64,000 nucleotides of DNA from Longimicrobium sp. (GTDB taxonomy: Bacteria > Gemmatimonadota > Gemmatimonadetes > Longimicrobiales > Longimicrobiaceae), in the NCBI GenBank assembly GCA_036377595.1, contig DASUYB010000198.1, positions 1 through 64,000 of the forward strand. The letters run 5' to 3'. The position numbers and the translations under genes were made by a program. Every line of letters starts with the position of its first letter. The stretch's first letter is position 1. The notes under the pieces are model-generated. The model saw nothing but the letters and a program-made list of their open reading frames with translations, did not search any database and was not told the DNA's origin. Positions 6,497 to 14,666 of this stretch are shown here, one piece after another.

Positions 6497-6610
6497 GGCC
6501 CTCACCCTGGAGAAGGCGAGACAAACTGCCTTCTCGCCTTCTCTGGAGGCCCTCACCCGAAAAGTTGAAGCGCCGAGACATAACCCCCGTCTCGGCGCTT
6601 CAACTTTTCG
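6497..6610. repeat. Two tandem hairpins behind a direct repeat
   Basis: GGCCCTCACCC occurs at 6497-6507 and 6548-6558 (51-base period). Each copy is followed by a palindrome: a 12-base stem GAGAAGGCGAGA (6510-6521/6532-6543), then a perfect 22-base stem (6558-6579/6589-6610) containing AAGTTGAAGCGCCGAGAC. Because each intervening unit is itself palindromic, this is not a CRISPR array. Confidence 0.7.
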
Positions 6611-6830: not shown

Positions 6831-7889
6831 TCAGCTCGACGGCAGCACGGTGAACGCCAGGCCGAACGGGCACACGCCGGTGGTGACGGTGCGGTTGACG
6901 GTGTAGGGCGCGCCGTTCAGGCGGTACGCCTTCCCCGCGGCCAGGCAGTCGCCCGGGTTCAGCGTGTGCAGCCGCCCCGAGGGGTCGAACCCGAGCCCCG
7001 ACACCGGCGGCGCGCCGTTGGGAAGGACCGGGTTGTCGAGCCCGCGCACGAACTGGCGCACGCCCGGGTTCCACACCAGCACGCCGGTGCCGTACACGCC
7101 CACGTACAGGTTGCCGTCCGGCCCCACGTCGATGGAGCCCGGGAACTCGCCGAAGCCGGGGACCAGCTCCTCGGTGCCCGTCACCAGGTTCACCACCGAG
7201 AGCGAGCCGTCGGCCTGCCCGAAGTGGCCGGCGTTGATCACGTACAGCCGGCTGCCGACCACCACCCCCGCCTGCGGGTTGATGCCGGTCAGCTGCAGGC
7301 TCCCCACCACCTTCCCCGTGGCGTCGATCGCGCTGATCGAGCCGGGGCCGGCGGGCGAGAAGTTCACCAGGTTGCCGTTCAGCACGAACAGCACGCCGCC
7401 GCTGGCCACGATCGCCTGCGGATAGGTGCCCACCGCCACCTCGGCGCCCACCGCGCCCGTGCGCACGTTCACCGGGGAGACCGTGTTGCGGTTGGGGTTG
7501 CCGACGAAGGCGATGGAGTCGTTCAGGAACGCCACGCCCGTGGCGCCCGAGTTGGCCGGGAGCGCCGCGGTGCGCGTCACGGTCCCCGTGCGCAGGTCCA
7601 CGATCGCCGCGAAGGGATAGGTGCCGAGCGGGACGACCGCCGTGGCGCCGTTCGCGGCCACGCCCACCGGCGTTCCCTGCGCGCCCAGCCCCACCGTCAC
7701 CGGCGTGGGGGTGGCGCTGTCGGGGGAGACCAGCGTCAGCGAGTTGCCCACGCTGTTCACGATCACCTCCACCCGCTGCGGGCCGCCGGTGGAGCCGCTG
7801 GGTCCATCGCCGCCGCTGCACGCCGCCAGCGCGGCGGTGGCCAGAAGGGCCGCAAGCCGGGCGAGCCGGCCGGAGATTCCGTTCTTCAT
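6831..7889 (-). CDS. Beta-propeller lipoprotein, BtuG-like candidate partner of the B12 receptor
   Basis: 352 residues. The signal peptide ends in a lipobox (ATAALAAC, Cys about residue 26), so it is a lipoprotein. The rest shows repeated beta-propeller blades of YncE/YVTN type: VGLGAQGTPVGVAANG, DLRTGTVTRTAALP, GVAFLNDSIAFVGNPNRN, NVRTGAVGAEVAVGTYPQ, GVLFVLNG, SISAIDATGKVVGSLQ, SLSVVNLVTG and IDVGPDGNLYVGVYG. It begins 20 bases after the receptor stop, with GGGAG just before the ATG, and closes the B12-riboswitch operon. Bacteroides BtuG is a surface beta-propeller lipoprotein that caps BtuB and captures B12; the same job is inferred here from fold and position. An unrelated propeller lipoprotein remains possible. 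Confidence 0.75.
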   Translation of the reverse strand: MKNGISGRLARLAALLATAALAACSGGDGPSGSTGGPQRVEVIVNSVGNSLTLVSPDSATPTPVTVGLGAQGTPVGVAANGATAVVPLGTYPFAAIVDLRTGTVTRTAALPANSGATGVAFLNDSIAFVGNPNRNTVSPVNVRTGAVGAEVAVGTYPQAIVASGGVLFVLNGNLVNFSPAGPGSISAIDATGKVVGSLQLTGINPQAGVVVGSRLYVINAGHFGQADGSLSVVNLVTGTEELVPGFGEFPGSIDVGPDGNLYVGVYGTGVLVWNPGVRQFVRGLDNPVLPNGAPPVSGLGFDPSGRLHTLNPGDCLAAGKAYRLNGAPYTVNRTVTTGVCPFGLAFTVLPSS

Positions 7890-7909
7890 CACTCCCACAC
7901 GTCCTGGGT

Positions 7910-10063
7910 TCAGGGTAGGTCTGCGCGGCTCAGGCGCAGGTCCAGGCGCACCCGCCGCCCCGGCTCGGGATAGCCGGCGATCAGCGACTGCTTCTCGTCG
8001 AACAATCGGTCCACGGTCACCGCGCCCACCGCGGCCCAGCGGCCCAGCCGCCATGCGCGCGACACGCCGGCGCCCGCGCTCCAGAAGCCGGGGAGCGCGT
8101 TGGCCTTCTCGGGCGCGGGGTAGCGCAGGCCGGTGTAGCGCGCGGCCACCTCCGCCCGCCACGCGCCGGGCGCCCACTCCGCGCGGAACATCCCGGCGTG
8201 CGCGGGGCGATACGCCACCTGGATCCCGCTGTCCTCGCCGTCCAGGACGTACGTGATACGCGCGACGGACCACGATCCTGACAGGCGGAGATCCGCCGCC
8301 GGCACCGCGGCCTCCATGCGCGCGTCCACGCCGCGGCGCGCGACGTCCACGTTGCGCGGGCTCCAGCGGAAGGCGAAGTCGGGGAGCCAGACGATCATCC
8401 CCTTCACATCGCCCGTGAACGCGGCGGCGGAGAGGGAGAGGTCGGCGCCGCCCATCCGTCCCCCCAGCGACGCCGCCAGCTCCCACTCGTTGGGCACGCG
8501 CTCGGGGCGGAGATCGGGATTGGGGACCACGCCCACGCCCTCGCGGAAGAACTGGTCTCCCAGCGAGGGCGGGCTGAAGCTGCTCCGGCTGGCGAGCTGT
8601 ACCCGCAGCGCGCCGAACGAGGTCCCCGCGGTGAGCGCGCGGCTGGCGAACCAGTCGCGCGTCACCCCGTCGCGGTCCACCCGTCCCTCGGCGGAGAGGT
8701 CGATCAGCTGGCGGGAGATGGAGATCACCCCCGCCGCGTGCGCGAACGCGCCGAAGTCGCGGCGGGTGCGCGGCGCGTTCTCCCCCAGTGCGCCGGCGTC
8801 GACGTGCTGCACCCCCGCGTCGATGCCGCCACCCGCGGTGCGGAAGACGCCGTCGCCGAGCGCGCGCTCCGCCTCGACGCGGAGGTCGGCGGCGCGGACG
8901 CGGGTGGTGTCGTCGTATGCCACCCCGAACGGCGGCGCGGGGTCGGCGAAGCGGGCGCGCTGCGTGGCGCCGGAAAGGAGCGCGGAGAGCGTCGTCCGCG
9001 CCCCCGTGCGCCGCCAGCCGAGCGACGCGCGCCCGCGCCCCATCTCCTCGCGCGCCTCCGGCGAAGGCGTGTGGCCGGTGCCGGGAAGGCCGCGGCGCAG
9101 CGCGTCCCATCCCCCGCGCGCGCGCAGCTCGCCGCCCGCGAGCGGCGACGACACCGCGCCGAACGCGCTCCACTCGTCCAGGTCGTCGTTGGTGCGGCGC
9201 AGCATCGTCGGGTCGTTCACGTCGCGGCGGTAATCGAAGCCGCCGCCGATCCGGCGCAGGTGGCCGCCGACGCTCCACGCCGTCCGCCCCGCGGCCCCCC
9301 CTGCTTCCCCCCCGCCCGACCACTCGCCGAGCGAGCCGGCGGAGAGCTCCAGCCCTTGGCGCGGCCGGGCGGCGCGCGTCTCGATCAGCACCACGCCGGC
9401 CTGTGCATGCGGCCCGTACCGCGCCGTCCGCGCGCCGGGAAGCACGGTCACGCGCTCGACGGACGACGCGGGAACGGCGCTGAGGTCGGCCTCGCCGGTG
9501 ACGGGATCGTTCAGCGCCACGCCGTCCAGCAGCACCAGCACCTCGTCCGCCGCGCTGCCGCGGATGGTGACGGTCCGTGCGCCCGTCGGCCCGTTGCCGC
9601 GCACGACCACGCCGGGGACGCGCTCCACCACCTCCGCCGCCGTCCGCGCGCCGCTCGCCTCGATCTCCGCACGCGCGACGGTGCCGCCCGCCGCCTCGGC
9701 CTCCGCCGTCACCCGCAGCGCCGACAGGGCCACGGGGAGCGGCTCGAGGGAGATGGAGAGGCGCGCCGTCTCGCCGTTGCGCACCGTCGCGGCCACCTCG
9801 CGCGACGCGTACCCGGTGCGGCGCACGAGGATGCGGTACTCGCCCGGCTCCAGCCCGCGCAGCCGGAACGCGCCCGCGCCGTCCGTCCGCGCCGCCAGCG
9901 GCGTCCCCGCGAGCTCGACGGACGCCGCCGCGACCGGTGCCCCGTTCGCCGCGTCCGTCACCGTCCCCGCCAGCTCGCCGGGAAACTGCGCGAGCAGGCG
10001 GATGGGGGCGATGAGGAGCAGGAGGACAAGGATCAGTGCGGCCGCGGCGCGGGAGCCCCCCAC
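7910..10063 (-). CDS. btuB: TonB-dependent outer-membrane receptor, BtuB-like
   Basis: About 717 residues. After a hydrophobic signal segment (RAAAALILVLLLLIAPIRLLAQ) comes a carboxypeptidase-regulatory-like domain (FPGELAGTVTDAANGAPVAAASVEL, about residues 24-100). Next is the plug (TAAEVVERVPGVVVRGNGPTG, TVTIRGSAADEVLVLLDGVALNDP, SVERVTVLPGARTARYGP), then a long beta-barrel. Cobalamin as substrate is inferred from the riboswitch and btuFCD directly upstream. It would need TonB-ExbB-ExbD, for which genes lie at 34534-38238. Start is uncertain: the GTG at 10063 begins the signal segment, whereas an ATG at 10174 would overlap the btuD stop but translate a hairpin repeat and a tandem GGGCACT repeat as an N-terminal tail. 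The protein ends LRLSRADLP rather than in the usual aromatic residue. Confidence 0.85.
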   Translation of the reverse strand: MGGSRAAAALILVLLLLIAPIRLLAQFPGELAGTVTDAANGAPVAAASVELAGTPLAARTDGAGAFRLRGLEPGEYRILVRRTGYASREVAATVRNGETARLSISLEPLPVALSALRVTAEAEAAGGTVARAEIEASGARTAAEVVERVPGVVVRGNGPTGARTVTIRGSAADEVLVLLDGVALNDPVTGEADLSAVPASSVERVTVLPGARTARYGPHAQAGVVLIETRAARPRQGLELSAGSLGEWSGGGEAGGAAGRTAWSVGGHLRRIGGGFDYRRDVNDPTMLRRTNDDLDEWSAFGAVSSPLAGGELRARGGWDALRRGLPGTGHTPSPEAREEMGRGRASLGWRRTGARTTLSALLSGATQRARFADPAPPFGVAYDDTTRVRAADLRVEAERALGDGVFRTAGGGIDAGVQHVDAGALGENAPRTRRDFGAFAHAAGVISISRQLIDLSAEGRVDRDGVTRDWFASRALTAGTSFGALRVQLASRSSFSPPSLGDQFFREGVGVVPNPDLRPERVPNEWELAASLGGRMGGADLSLSAAAFTGDVKGMIVWLPDFAFRWSPRNVDVARRGVDARMEAAVPAADLRLSGSWSVARITYVLDGEDSGIQVAYRPAHAGMFRAEWAPGAWRAEVAARYTGLRYPAPEKANALPGFWSAGAGVSRAWRLGRWAAVGAVTVDRLFDEKQSLIAGYPEPGRRVRLDLRLSRADLP

Positions 10064-10078
10064 CCCGCGCTTAGCGCG

Positions 10079-10110
10079 ACCCTCCCCCCAAAACCGACTG
10101 GGGGGAGGGT
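10079..10110. repeat. AGTCGGTTTT-loop hairpin, copy 1
   Basis: ACCCTCCCCCC (10079-10089) pairs with GGGGGGAGGGT (10100-10110) around the core AAAACCGACT. The reverse of the same core, flanked by the same C/G runs, occurs at 56717-56749. It lies between btuD and the preferred receptor start. Confidence 0.7.
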
Positions 10111-10136
10111 GGAGGATCCCGCCGCCCCGCACGACT

Positions 10137-10163
10137 GGGCACTGGGCACTGGGCACTGGGCAC
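10137..10163. repeat. Tandem CACTGGG repeat
   Basis: The 7-base unit CACTGGG is repeated four times just after the btuD stop. Related GCACT-based runs lie at about 21017-21032 (CACTCAG units), 31338-31369 and 63570-63600 (GTGCGA units). Confidence 0.7.
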
Positions 10164-11009
10164 TTACGCCGCATCGGCATCCTCTTCGCGCCGGCCGAGC
10201 ATCTCCGCGCATGACTCGCCGGAAAGCGGGACGACCTGAGGCGCGCCGGCGTCGGGGCCGGGGCCGGGGTGGCGGTCGATCCGGACGGGCCAGCCGTACA
10301 CGCGCTCCACCGTCTCCCGCGCCAGCACCTCGGCGGGCGTGCCGGTAGCGGCCACGCGCCCATGATCCAGCAGCACCAGCCGGTCCGCATAGCGCGCGGC
10401 GAGGTTGAGATTGTGCGTCACCAGCAGCACCGTCGTTCCCGCGCGGCCCAGGTCGCGCAGGAGCTCGAAGATGGCCATCTCGTGGCTCACGTCGAGCGCC
10501 GCCGTGGGCTCGTCCAGCGCCAGCGCCGACGGCTCCTGCGCCAGCGCCCGCGCCACCCGCGCCCGCTGCCGCTCGCCGCCGGAGAGCGTGGAGATGGGCC
10601 GCTGTGCGAACGCCAGCACGTCGCACCGCTCCATCGCCCGCTCGACCGCGCGCCGGTCGGCGTCGCGCTCGCGCCGCCAGGGGCCGAGGTGGGGATAGCG
10701 CCCCATCGCCACCATCTCCCGCACCGTCATCGGGAAGACGGCCTCCTCGCCCTGAGGCACCACGCCCACCGCGCGGGCGATCTCCTCCCGTCCCCACTGC
10801 GCCACCGGACGCCCGTCCAGCTCCACCGCGCCGGCGGAGGGGGAGAGGATGCCCAGCATCAGCCGCAGCAGCGTCGACTTTCCCGATCCGTTGGGGCCGA
10901 GGACGGCCGTGCACGCGCCGGCGGGGACCTCCACCGTCACCCCGTCGACGGCGCAGCCGGTGGCCTCCGGGTAGCGGAAGGTGAGGCCGCGGCAGCTCCA
11001 TCCGTTCAC
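10164..11009 (-). CDS. btuD: Cobalamin/metal-chelate ABC transporter ATP-binding protein
   Basis: 281 residues, cytoplasmic ATPase of the B12 importer. Walker A is [13 protein letters not shown] (about residues 36-48), the Q-loop is VVPQGE, the signature is STLSGGERQRARVARALAQ, Walker B is ALALDEPTAALD, and the switch His is in LLVTHNLN. The GTG start at 11009 overlaps the btuC stop as GTGA, indicating translational coupling. A longer open frame upstream is antisense-like reading of btuC. The C-terminal ~30 residues beyond the core are poorly conserved in character. FecE-type siderophore ATPases look similar; the riboswitch decides for cobalamin. Confidence 0.93.
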   Translation of the reverse strand: MNGWSCRGLTFRYPEATGCAVDGVTVEVPAGACTAVLGPNGSGKSTLLRLMLGILSPSAGAVELDGRPVAQWGREEIARAVGVVPQGEEAVFPMTVREMVAMGRYPHLGPWRRERDADRRAVERAMERCDVLAFAQRPISTLSGGERQRARVARALAQEPSALALDEPTAALDVSHEMAIFELLRDLGRAGTTVLLVTHNLNLAARYADRLVLLDHGRVAATGTPAEVLARETVERVYGWPVRIDRHPGPGPDAGAPQVVPLSGESCAEMLGRREEDADAA

Positions 11010-11992
11010 GCGGCCCTCCGTCGCAGCAGCCAGACGAAGAACGGCACGCCCACGAACGCCGTCACCACGCCCACGGGCAGTTCGGTGGGCGCGGCGGCGG
11101 TGCGCGCGAGGGTGTCGGCCAGCACCACGAACGCGGCGCCGAGCAGCACCGAGGCGGGGATCAGGAAGCGGTGGTCCGGCCCCCACAGCATCCGCACCAC
11201 GTGGGGGACGACGAGGCCGACGAAGCCGATCACCCCGCTCACCGCCACGGCGCCCGCGGTCAGCAGCGACGCGGTGCCGTAGGCCAGGAGCTTGGTGCGC
11301 TCCACCCGCGTCCCCAGGTACGCGGCCGTCTCCTCCCCCACGGAGAGGAGGTTGAGCGGGCGGGCGAGGGCGAGCAGCAGCGTCATCCCCGGCACCATCG
11401 CCGCGCCGAGCAGCGCGATCCCGCGCCAGGTGGCGCCGGAGAAGCTTCCCATCATCCAGAAGATGGCGGAACGGAAGGCGTCGGCGTCGGCGAAGGTCAG
11501 CGCCAGCAGGATGCAGGCGTTGAAGAAGGCGCCCACCACCACGCCGGCGAGGAGCAGGATGCGCGTGTCCAGCGCCCTCCCCACCACGGCGGCAAGGCGG
11601 AAGACCAGGAGCACCGCGAACACCGCCCCCGCCAGCGCGGCCACGCCCACGACGCCCGCCGACGCCAGGGTACCGCCCAGGGCGATGGCGAACACCGCGC
11701 CCACCGCCGCGCCGCCGCTGATCCCCAGGATGTACGGCTCAGCGAGGGGATTCCGCAGCAGCGCCTGGAAGGTCGCGCCGCTGGCCGCGAGCGAGCCGCC
11801 CACCATCGCCGCCAGCACCGCGCGGGGAAGGCGGAGGCGGCGCACGATGGCGACGGTCGTGGGATCCGCCGTCCCCCGCACGCCGTCCATCACCTGGCGC
11901 AGGGAGAGCGGCACCGCGCCCAGCCGCACGGCCACCAGGAGCGCGGCGACGGCGATCGCCGCCAGCAGGGCCAGGCGCGCGAGCGGCTTCAT
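11006..11992 (-). CDS. btuC: Cobalamin ABC transporter permease
   Basis: 328 residues, the usual length for BtuC/FecCD permeases, which form the ten-helix dimeric inner-membrane channel. Family features are PRAVLAAMVGGSLAASGATFQALLRNPLAEPYILGIS near residues 58-96 (quoted here in parts: GGSLAASGATFQ, NPLAEPYILGIS), FWMMGSFSGATW in the middle, and SGVIGFVGLVVPHVVRMLWG close to the end. Start ATG at 11992 overlaps the btuF stop (ATGA), and its own stop overlaps btuD, so btuF, btuC and btuD are coupled in one transcript under the B12 riboswitch. Confidence 0.95.
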   Translation of the reverse strand: MKPLARLALLAAIAVAALLVAVRLGAVPLSLRQVMDGVRGTADPTTVAIVRRLRLPRAVLAAMVGGSLAASGATFQALLRNPLAEPYILGISGGAAVGAVFAIALGGTLASAGVVGVAALAGAVFAVLLVFRLAAVVGRALDTRILLLAGVVVGAFFNACILLALTFADADAFRSAIFWMMGSFSGATWRGIALLGAAMVPGMTLLLALARPLNLLSVGEETAAYLGTRVERTKLLAYGTASLLTAGAVAVSGVIGFVGLVVPHVVRMLWGPDHRFLIPASVLLGAAFVVLADTLARTAAAPTELPVGVVTAFVGVPFFVWLLRRRAA

Positions 11993-12930
11993 CGCCCGCG
12001 CAGCTCCGGGTGGATGGCGTCGCGAACCGCGCGCGCGGCTTCGGCCAGGTGCGGCCCGGGCTGGTTCACCACCTGCGAGGGAACGGAGACGCCGCGCCCC
12101 TCGCGCAGCGCGCGCAGCTCGCGCCACCCCACCGACGTCTTCAGCGCCTCCAGCCGCACCGTCCCCTGCTCGCCGATGGGGACGACCACGAAGTCGGGCT
12201 GGCGGCGCACGATCTCCTCCAGCGACACGTTGGGCCACAGCGCCGCCTGGTCGGCGAAGGCGTTGCGCCCGCCCGCGATCTCGATCACCTGCGACACGAA
12301 GGTCTTGGGCCCCGCGGTCATGGGCGGGTCGTTCCACACCAGGAAGAACACGGACGGCCGCGGCGAAGCGGCCACCGATGCGCGCACGGCGTCCAGCTCG
12401 CCCCGGATCGCCGTGGCGAGCGAATCCGCCGCGTCCGTGCGCCCGGTCAGGCGGCCGAGGCTGCGGATGGAGCGGAAGACGTCGGTGGTGTCTTCCAGCT
12501 TGACGGAGAAGACGGGGATGCCGAGCGCGGTCAGCCGGTCGCGCAACTCGGTGCGGCCGGTGGTCTCCCAGCCGAGCACCAGGTCGGGGTGGAGGGAGAC
12601 GAGCTTCTCGATGCTGGGGTCCAGCCCGCCGCCGACGGAGGGGAGCCGCTCCACCATCACCCCCCTGTCGTAGGCCGTCCGTCCCACCAGGCGCTCGCCC
12701 GCGCCCAGCGCGATCACCGTCTCCGTGGCCGCGGGGACGAGGGCGACGATGCGGCGCGCGGGGCGGGGAAGGGTGACGGTGCGCCCCGCGTCGTCCGTGA
12801 CGGAGACGGACGAGTCCGCCGCCGCCCCGCCGCGCGCGCGATCGTCCGCGCGTCCGCCGCACCCGGCAAGGAGCGCGGCCGCCAGCGCGGCGGCGATGGG
12901 GATGCGGCGCTTGGGATCCGTCGGAAACAA
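11989..12930 (-). CDS. btuF: Cobalamin-binding lipoprotein of B12 ABC importer
   Basis: 313 residues. The lipobox LAAALLAGC (Cys about residue 24) anchors the substrate-binding protein in the periplasm. The periplasmic-binding fold typical of BtuF/FepB follows: VTDDAGRTVTLPRPARRIVALVPAATETVIALG, with DPSIEKLVSLHPDLVLGWE and the C-terminal lobe IAGGRNAFADQAALWPNVSLEEIVRRQPD (each motif is part of a longer run). Translation starts at a TTG (12930). The only good Shine-Dalgarno, AAGGAC, is seven bases upstream and sits inside a strong hairpin, so synthesis is probably repressed when B12 is bound to the upstream riboswitch. Confidence 0.93.
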   Translation of the reverse strand: MFPTDPKRRIPIAAALAAALLAGCGGRADDRARGGAAADSSVSVTDDAGRTVTLPRPARRIVALVPAATETVIALGAGERLVGRTAYDRGVMVERLPSVGGGLDPSIEKLVSLHPDLVLGWETTGRTELRDRLTALGIPVFSVKLEDTTDVFRSIRSLGRLTGRTDAADSLATAIRGELDAVRASVAASPRPSVFFLVWNDPPMTAGPKTFVSQVIEIAGGRNAFADQAALWPNVSLEEIVRRQPDFVVVPIGEQGTVRLEALKTSVGWRELRALREGRGVSVPSQVVNQPGPHLAEAARAVRDAIHPELRGR

Positions 12931-12933
12931 GAA

Positions 12934-12968
12934 ACCCGTCCTTCCCGTAGAGGCGGGAGGGAACGGGT
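12934..12968 (-). promoter_or_regulatory. Hairpin sequestering the btuF ribosome binding site
   Basis: On the plus strand ACCCGTCCTTCCCG (12934-12947) is complementary to CGGGAGGGAACGGGT (12954-12968) with one bulged base. The btuF Shine-Dalgarno (plus GTCCTT, 12938-12943) is inside one arm, seven bases from the TTG start. This is the expected architecture of a translational OFF switch below a cobalamin aptamer. Confidence 0.7.
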
Positions 12969-13059
12969 GCGATGGCGGCGGGGCGACGTCCCCGATGGGG
13001 AAATGAAGCCAGAGGCCGGCGATCGGACCCGCTCCCCTCCCGCGAGGGGCGTTCGTGCG

Positions 13060-13265
13060 GGAGCGAAGGGACCGGTCTCCTGGCTCGAGGCGGCTGGCGC
13101 TCCACCTTCCCAGGCGTGTCGTACGCCCAGTGGCTGTGCGGGGGCTGGACCCCCGCGGAGCGGGCCGGGCCGGCGACCGTGGCCGCCGGGCCTCTCACAG
13201 TGGCGGGGCCGCGCCGGAGTTGCACCGGCTTCCGAATGGCCCCCTCGCGTCGTGTTGTCGCGGGA
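13060..13265 (-). ncRNA. Cobalamin (vitamin B12) riboswitch aptamer
   Basis: Read 5' to 3' on the minus strand, the hallmark elements occur in order: GGAAGCCGGTGCAACTCCGG (13233-13214), CCCCGCCACTGTGAGAG including the B12 box GCCACTGT (to about 13192), a long variable arm, then GAGCCAGGAGACCGGTCC (13086-13069). The aptamer lies upstream of btuFCD-btuB. Outer borders are approximate because the P1 helix was judged by eye. Confidence 0.92.
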
Positions 13266-13425: not shown

Positions 13426-13977
13426 ATGTTCGTACCCCACACGCCCTCAGCCCCGCGCACGCCGCTGCGCACCGCCGAATCCACCCCCTTCGCCCAGGAC
13501 AACCCGAGAACCCCCCGACGCCCCGCCGGACCGGCGGTGGCCGCCACGCTGGCGCCGTCGCTGCGCCGCGCGCAGCACCTTCCCGCGCGCCTGCGCGAGG
13601 CGCTGGCGCTGGCGTGCGACGAAGCGCGCAACATCCGCACGGTGGAGAAGCTGGCCACCGCCGCCGGGTGCGACCGCCGCACGCTGTGGACGCACTGGAA
13701 GCACACCGTGGGCGCCGGGCTGCGCCTGCAGGACTTCCTGCACTGGCTCCTCCTCCTCCGCGCCACGCACCGCAAGACGGCTGCGCGCGCCTGGGCCGAC
13801 GTGGCCGACGAGATCGGCATCCATCCCCACACGCTGGGCCGCCTGGCCCGTCAGCTCACCGGCAGCTCGCTGCGCGACCTGGCCGCGCGGGGGCACGCCG
13901 CGCTGGAGCACCGCTTCCAGACCGAGGTGGTCCCGCGCGTGCTGGTGCCGTCGCCGAACGGCCGCGGGCGGGCGTAG
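13426..13977 (+). CDS. Small helix-turn-helix protein (AraC-like HTH), sister of next gene
   Basis: 183 residues. After a Pro/Thr-rich N-terminus (1-45) there are two HTH-like units. The first is about 55-95 (LREALALACDEARNIRTVEK...AAGCDRRTLWTHWK). The second is LHWLLLLRATHRKTAARAWADVADEIGIHPHTLGRLARQL near 105-150, resembling the second HTH of AraC-type proteins. No effector domain is seen. It shares motif order with the gene at 14136 (AGCDRRTLW, LHWLLL.RA, IHPHTLGRLARQ versus VHPQTLARFARQ), so the two are tandem paralogues. It is transcribed divergently from the B12 riboswitch. The ATG at 13426 is assumed; no clear ribosome site was found. Targets are unknown. Confidence 0.7.
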   Translation: MFVPHTPSAPRTPLRTAESTPFAQDNPRTPRRPAGPAVAATLAPSLRRAQHLPARLREALALACDEARNIRTVEKLATAAGCDRRTLWTHWKHTVGAGLRLQDFLHWLLLLRATHRKTAARAWADVADEIGIHPHTLGRLARQLTGSSLRDLAARGHAALEHRFQTEVVPRVLVPSPNGRGRA

Positions 13978-14135
13978 CTTCGCGGCGGCGGCGGCGCGGC
14001 TCGCACCTCCGCGGTGCGCATCCGTGCCGCCCCGCGCGCGCATCCTTCCTTCTGACAGCATCGTTGCAGGCGTGAACCGCCGGGGCCTCCGCCGCGCGGA
14101 CGGTCCCGGGCCGCGATCCACCGCCGCGCCCGCCG

Positions 14136-14666
14136 ATGCACGCCGATCTCCTCCCGCTCCCGTCACCCCGCGCGGCCGCCGCGCCTCTTCGCCTCGTCCC
14201 CGCCGCCCGGAACGCGCAGGGACCCGTCCAGAACCTCGTTTTGGCGCTGCGGCGGTGCGCGTCGATCTCGCCGCGGCTGCGCGACGCGCTGCTGCAGGCG
14301 TGCGCCGCGCCGCGCCCGTTCCGCAGCGTCGCCCGCCTGGCCGCCGCGGCCGGGTGCGACCGGCGCACGCTCTGGCGCGACTGGCGGCAGGCGATGGGCG
14401 ATTCGCACCCGCTGCGGCTGGAGGACGTGCTGCACTGGCTGCTGCTGGCGCGGGCGATGGAGATGCGGGCGCCGGGGCGTTCCTGGGGCGAGCTGGCCAG
14501 CGCCGTGGCCGTGCATCCGCAGACGCTCGCCCGCTTCGCGCGCCAGTTCACCCGCCGCTCGCTCCGCGGCGTGTCGGCCGACCCCGCAGCCGCGTCTGCC
14601 GCGCTCGAGCGCGCGCTCATCCCCTTCTTCGCCGACGACATCGCCGGCCGCGCGAACGCCGCGTAA
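14136..14666 (+). CDS. Small helix-turn-helix protein (AraC-like HTH), paralogue
   Basis: 176 residues with the same plan as the preceding gene: an N-terminal linker, then RLRDALLQACAAPRPFRSVA, AAAGCDRRTLWRDWRQ, VLHWLLLARAMEMRAPGRSW and VHPQTLARFARQFTRRSLRG, with a short C-terminal helix. Presumably a DNA-binding regulator; no ligand domain is visible. Separated by 158 bases from its sister, so they are probably separate units from a tandem duplication. A tandem-arm hairpin begins 12 bases after the stop codon and ends in a short T-rich stretch, so it may serve as terminator. Confidence 0.7.
   Translation: MHADLLPLPSPRAAAAPLRLVPAARNAQGPVQNLVLALRRCASISPRLRDALLQACAAPRPFRSVARLAAAAGCDRRTLWRDWRQAMGDSHPLRLEDVLHWLLLARAMEMRAPGRSWGELASAVAVHPQTLARFARQFTRRSLRGVSADPAAASAALERALIPFFADDIAGRANAA

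Follow-up and report, generated by a model that had tools for sequence, protein, structure and literature searches.

BtuG proteins of Bacteroides are the closest described counterparts of the gene presented here. BtuG1, BtuG2 and BtuG3 of Bacteroides thetaiotaomicron are lipoproteins with a seven-bladed propeller that adjoin BtuB in riboswitch-controlled B12 loci (PMC6143338, PMC10404256). BtuG2 holds the corrinoid on the propeller face turned toward BtuB2 and caps this receptor, with Trp194, Trp272 and Tyr316 narrowing the pocket (PMC10404256). On the basis of 313 human gut genomes, BtuG was described as exclusive to Bacteroidetes and was tied to gut competition (PMC6143338). DUF4465 proteins (BtuJ) provide a further precedent of B12-binding partners of B12 transport loci; most of them are lipoproteins, and they occur in several phyla outside Bacteroidetes, although they form another family with other binding loops (PMC13398666). 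A survey of Gemmatimonadota, a phylum that the 2018 gut-genome survey did not target, mentions only btuB and salvage (PMC10581226), and we found no publication linking BtuG with Gemmatimonas, subscription papers and preprints being outside the scope of this search. Here, we describe a BtuG-like propeller lipoprotein encoded at the end of a B12 uptake operon in a 64,000-nucleotide stretch (hereafter the window) of contig DASUYB010000198.1 from Longimicrobium sp., a member of Gemmatimonadota.

The operon lies on the minus strand (6831-13233) in the order cobalamin riboswitch, btuF, btuC, btuD, BtuB-like receptor and propeller lipoprotein. An earlier note, made from the letters of this DNA, had proposed this order, and all of its elements were recovered with Rfam, Pfam and NCBIfam. 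The lipoprotein gene (6831-7889, minus strand) encodes 352 amino acids with a lipobox (LAA/C) and a lipid-anchored Cys24, and nearly all full-length relatives also carry a lipobox. The receptor stop codon (7912-7910) and the lipoprotein ATG (7889) are 20 nucleotides apart, in agreement with the length and spacing given in the note, whose guess of a Gemmatimonadota-like host was also correct. The annotation of the lipoprotein as BtuG-like combines its sequence, an AlphaFold2 model, Foldseek and linkage to btu genes. We propose, with a probability of about 0.68, that this protein captures B12 and is a probably surface-exposed partner of the receptor, functioning like BtuG in a riboswitch-controlled uptake system. 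Many Gemmatimonadota indeed carry this B12-linked partner of the receptor, whose predicted fold is BtuG-like; its function as a capture lid is likely by analogy with Bacteroides.

The window lipoprotein matched no Pfam family above threshold, and a search of its own genome returned only the protein itself. Modelled by AlphaFold2 together with 27 relatives, it gave a confident structure (predicted local distance difference test, pLDDT, 95; predicted template modelling score, pTM, 0.92) of seven blades with three or four strands each, as expected from the propeller proposed in the earlier note; the model from the single sequence was useless (pLDDT 36). In a Foldseek search of the PDB, chains of BtuG from Bacteroides occupied ranks 1-11 and 13-17, i.e. 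16 of the best 17, at 16-18% identity across the fold. BtuG1/2/3 are thus the nearest PDB neighbours by this method, rank 12 being 1L0Q, the YVTN propeller of an archaeal surface layer protein. With VIA-align, 1L0Q came first (Z 37.1, root-mean-square deviation 2.1 over 285 residues), and BtuG1 (Z 32.9) was tied with the propellers of 6-phosphogluconolactonase and nitrous oxide reductase (the latter 30-32), E. coli YncE reaching 29.1. Because of these ties, the predicted fold by itself does not discriminate between functions and assigns none.

We read the gene neighbourhood in 60 genomes that represent eight families of Gemmatimonadota; they were chosen among search results and do not form a random sample. 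On the question of whether homologues are linked to B12 genes, raised in the earlier note, the answer was uniform: btu genes were adjacent in 60 out of 60 genomes. The lipoprotein gene directly follows a BtuB-like receptor, as the next recognised gene and with or without btuFCD, in 49 of them, and lies beside btuF or btuD in 11 (ten genomes of family f4 and one of f9). Moreover, a cobalamin riboswitch (Rfam) was detected at 41 of the 47 scanned member loci, including that of the window (one miss corresponds to a cut contig end), and at none of eight control propeller loci. Twelve control propellers (36-62 bits) have no adjoining receptor, btuF or btuC, one of them (L181) being accompanied by ATP-binding cassette (ABC) ATPases with a low btuD score. 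In searches at the level of the order and the phylum, the scores of the family and those of other propellers were distinct except for a narrow overlap around 60 bits; the divergent members L150 and L151 (58 and 65 bits) still follow a receptor. An alignment scan of the genome collection yielded 28 loci, all in Gemmatimonadota; as it relied on a single peptide pattern taken from Gemmatimonadota sequences, it says nothing firm on other phyla; a single-protein scan yielded none, and no plasmid matched the family pattern.

This linkage bears on the idea of mere co-regulation, in which the lipoprotein would do something else, for example in a cell-surface structure, and have no role in B12 uptake. 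Generic propeller folds do serve many functions. Nevertheless, the association with btu genes persists in every genome read, across the eight families and through several operon rearrangements, and the lipoprotein is inherited jointly with the receptor, which makes mere co-regulation very unlikely. At one locus (L056:7505-9026), a cobalamin riboswitch is followed by the lipoprotein gene alone, neither a receptor nor btuFCD having been found on that stretch.

We then examined which component of the system is the partner of the lipoprotein. Three types of lipoprotein can be told apart: A, to which the window protein belongs; B, marked by a C...CRG motif; and C, which has few members. On a tree of 44 receptors, lipoprotein type changes only twice, the minimum for three types (none of 200 shuffles was as low), versus 10 changes for taxonomic family. 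For a set of 28 loci, the BtuC tree requires six changes of type, against two on the receptor tree of these loci; the trees are of a quick kind, and long branches were flagged in f4. Since the subtype follows the receptor tree and not the BtuC tree, the receptor is likely the partner of the lipoprotein. In addition, three genomes of the family to which the window belongs combine family-typical btuFCD genes with a type-B receptor and a type-B lipoprotein. Together with the tracking of the receptor tree, these genomes make receptor and lipoprotein look like one exchangeable module. Two variations in architecture were also observed: one receptor with a pair of lipoproteins in tandem behind it, the first of type B and the second divergent and type-A-like (L045, L046 and L047), and a type-B lipoprotein with an Ig/PKD-like N-terminal extension ahead of the propeller (L050:3599-4972), a long N-terminal part also being present in L159 and L161.

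The sequence following the lipid-anchored cysteine may bear on location. From +2 to +8, this stretch is acidic in the lipoprotein and nearly devoid of Lys and Arg, with a net charge of -1.6 versus -0.1 in BtuF of the same operons (p 1e-6). Four SusD homologues encoded in the genome of the window have a post-Cys stretch similar to that of the lipoprotein. In SusCD and RagAB, a surface lipoprotein likewise forms a lid on a TonB-dependent receptor, and the N-terminal CarboxypepD_reg domain of SusC-type receptors is also found in the window receptor. SusD is helical and not a propeller, and the substrates of SusCD and RagAB are glycans or peptides. The SusD homologues show only that this organism has lipoprotein families of the surface-lid kind.

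The main rival of the surface partner is a periplasm-facing shuttle, tethered to the outer (or inner) membrane, that would move the corrinoid from the receptor to BtuF. It would readily accommodate the 11 genomes in which the gene lies beside btuD or btuF with no receptor in the operon, and pairwise distances of the lipoprotein correlate with those of btuD and btuF no less than with those of the receptor; our literature search also found no experimental surface export of lipoproteins in this phylum. Such a shuttle is nonetheless unlikely, as BtuF, a lipoprotein that necessarily faces the periplasm, has a different post-Cys stretch, and the subtype tracks the receptor tree rather than the BtuC tree. 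Furthermore, at least seven loci (L035, L039, L040, L041, L043, L044 and L050), with no btuFCD upstream, carry receptor and lipoprotein genes behind a riboswitch of their own, and BtuG itself offers a precedent for a surface position.

If the lipoprotein is a surface partner, uptake could proceed as follows. At low cytoplasmic B12, the riboswitch would permit expression of BtuF, BtuCD, the BtuB-like receptor and the lipoprotein, the latter most likely being sited outside the outer membrane. The corrinoid would be bound on the propeller face that is rich in loops and conserved; the lipoprotein, sitting on the receptor as a lid, would then hand it over, as BtuG does in Bacteroides. TonB would drive uptake and BtuF-BtuCD would complete import. 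Capture and hand-over to the receptor are proposed because of the analogy with BtuG2 capping BtuB2. The fold, gene order, riboswitch, B12 linkage, lipoprotein signal and inheritance with the receptor are computed, and it is surface exposure, corrinoid binding, docking and lid motion that we infer. In line with a binding face, the propeller loops of one face are more conserved than those of the other (p 2.5e-4), the faces being assigned from predicted strands.

Several observations weigh against a BtuG-like lid. BtuG2 has a strongly negative binding face opposite a positive one, whereas in the Gemmatimonadota family the loops are acidic on either face (net charge averaging -7.1 and -5.6; -3 and +1 in the window protein), so that these loop charges do not reproduce the negative-face contrast of BtuG2. 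Aromatic residues narrow the BtuG2 pocket; only one Trp occurs in the mature form of the window protein, and it lies within a strand. The blades of the model all have three or four strands, while blade 6 of BtuG2 has two. The mirror-tree correlations of pairwise distances do not single out the receptor, btuD correlating equally. Moreover, unlike BtuG, the lipoprotein is in some genomes encoded apart from the receptor: ten f4 genomes keep the gene with btuFCD in the absence of a receptor, and a strict receptor-lid pair predicts otherwise. At these loci (L163, L167, L168, L171, L173, L174 and L176-L179), btuCD, in most cases with btuF, is directly followed by the lipoprotein, and the receptor is unlinked. 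In most cases checked, a riboswitch-led BtuB-like receptor is present elsewhere in the genome; in genome G140, no receptor was found at the second riboswitch site, and two other sites offered too little sequence to be read. Finally, among 15 genomes of the same order in which no strong member was found, 12 still carry cobalamin riboswitches, several of which precede a plain BtuB gene that has no such lipoprotein beside it. Because such genomes exist, the lipoprotein is not indispensable for B12 uptake in this phylum.

To situate the family among propellers, we compared a family profile with the PDB. The first match was 1L0Q (E 1.9e-20), followed by BtuG (8ptf/8ptd, 2e-10; 8blw_B, 2.5e-9) and, between these and the remaining BtuG chains (3e-6 to 3e-5), by hydrazine synthase beta (3e-7). 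A control profile, built from ten other propellers of the phylum with weak matches to the family profile, retrieved 1L0Q (1e-78), hydrazine synthase beta (4e-38) and YncE (2e-23), BtuG appearing only from rank 26 down, behind also Lp49 and NirF. As control propellers of the same phylum rank BtuG far lower, its prominence is specific to the lipoprotein family at the level of sequence, albeit at 16-18% identity. 1L0Q nevertheless outranks BtuG in two of the three tests (profile and VIA-align, not Foldseek). Like the lipoprotein, it is a seven-bladed YVTN-type propeller, but it has consensus-like repeats and a PKD domain, and other Gemmatimonadota propellers match it much better. We know of no B12 linkage for 1L0Q.

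The Pfam model DUF5074 (PF16819) was not helpful in this respect. The window protein had no match, and 4 of 26 relatives matched weakly (best E 0.011), none of them reaching the cut-off. A BtuG fragment itself falls short of the cut-off (21.7 vs. 27.2 bits); this model is therefore, on the sequences compared, a poor marker and no defining feature of BtuG. A DUF5074 sweep of the phylum returned mostly other propellers and was abandoned. The BtuG-like character claimed in the earlier note thus holds in part: the nearest Foldseek structures are BtuG and the subtype follows the receptor phylogeny, but the name BtuG is not secured, given the unmatched DUF5074 model, the complete blades and the better scores of 1L0Q by profile and VIA-align.

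Two origins can be considered, and a B12-binding propeller ancestor shared with Bacteroides BtuG, through the common ancestor of the phyla or lateral transfer, would be compatible with the function proposed above. We give such descent close to an even chance. Foldseek and the profile rank BtuG over all natural propellers except 1L0Q, which control propellers do not; the gene pairing and regulation are those of BtuG, the receptor is nearest to BtuB1, and the few weak DUF5074 matches have their parallel in the BtuG fragment. Identity to BtuG of just 16-18% over the fold, the VIA-align ties below 1L0Q and the lack of a two-stranded blade 6 speak against descent. The last two, together with the sequence profile, would suit the independent recruitment of a YVTN-type propeller lipoprotein as a BtuB partner in Gemmatimonadota, and the conserved family motifs SGATG and GFG.FP and, in type A, the C292/C317 pair (mature protein numbering) were matched to no reported BtuG feature. 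Convergence is a tenable origin, though its odds fall somewhat short of even, since the high rank of BtuG is not general to propellers: the controls match 1L0Q far better and rank BtuG far worse. A fuller version of this scenario, which we regard as less likely than not, is that Gemmatimonadota independently invented a B12-capturing propeller lid on BtuB from a YVTN-type lipoprotein, with its own binding residues, and that receptor and lid, matched to each other in at least two subtypes, then evolved and moved together.

In the publications covered here, BtuG lids are described only from Bacteroidetes (PMC6143338), so that a BtuG-like fold paired with a BtuB-like receptor outside this group appears to be new. 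If the proposed function is true, corrinoid capture lids would be a more general answer to B12 scarcity, also used by a phylum whose members live in soil, sediment and groundwater. Comparing the Gemmatimonadota family with BtuG would tell whether the B12 pocket has one origin or two, and the receptor and lipoprotein constitute a defined, testable protein pair.

The receptor gene (7910-10063, minus strand; putative GTG start near 10063, placed with the help of the signal peptide) encodes an N-terminal CarboxypepD_reg domain, a plug (PF07715, E 4e-22) and a barrel (PF00593, E 5e-15). Its top NCBIfam match is the TonB-B12 model TIGR01779, at 108.7 bits; because this is far under the cut-off (599.7), we call it BtuB-like. 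For a profile of 23 such receptors, the ten best PDB matches are all BtuB chains (E 1e-47 to 8e-32), the first being B. thetaiotaomicron BtuB1 of the BtuB1G1 complex (8blw_A, E 1.2e-47) and the next E. coli BtuB. Most of the 23 receptors have the CarboxypepD_reg-like domain at the N-terminus. We dropped the hypothesis that this domain must be present in the receptor for the lipoprotein to occur, as several adjoining f4 receptors lack it.

The remaining parts of the operon are all on the minus strand. The riboswitch aptamer (RF00174, 13075-13233) forms the operon leader and is the sole Rfam family in the window; it passed the gathering score (33.3 vs. 31.5 bits, E 1e-4). This score is weak, and the same element upstream of homologous operons reaches 35-91 bits. 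One copy of RF00174 was detected in the 7.2-Mb genome, and position 13265, where the earlier note ended the locus, is about 30 nucleotides past the Rfam match. The B12 substrate-binding lipoprotein BtuF (11989-12930, putative start codon TTG) matches PF01497 (Peripla_BP_2, E 3.3e-36) and, under the cut-off, the BtuF model NF002894 (E 6e-31). The B12 ABC transporter permease BtuC (11006-11992) matches PF01032 (FecCD, E 4.9e-92), two BtuC models being its top NCBIfam matches, under the cut-off. The ABC transporter ATPase BtuD (10164-11009) matches PF00005 (ABC_tran, E 2.9e-32) and, also under the cut-off, the corrinoid ABC ATPase model NF007082 (E 5e-76).

As for the need of the host for B12, the corrin synthesis step CbiC was not found in this 96% complete genome, which encodes several proteins with a B12-binding domain. 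On these two grounds, the host probably depends on B12 uptake, the absence of one gene being weak evidence alone.

Some minor features were noted in and around the operon. Between btuD and the receptor gene, ACTGGGC is repeated four times in tandem (10134-10161). Upstream of the operon (13447-14666), two adjacent open reading frames share a GCDRRTLW motif and probably encode paralogous helix-turn-helix proteins. Downstream of it, a perfect inverted repeat (6558-6610) with 22-nucleotide arms and a 9-nucleotide loop is part of a palindromic element of about 90 bp, similar to repetitive extragenic palindromic or bacterial interspersed mosaic elements (REP/BIME-like), with about 40 further matches in the genome (73-100% identity).

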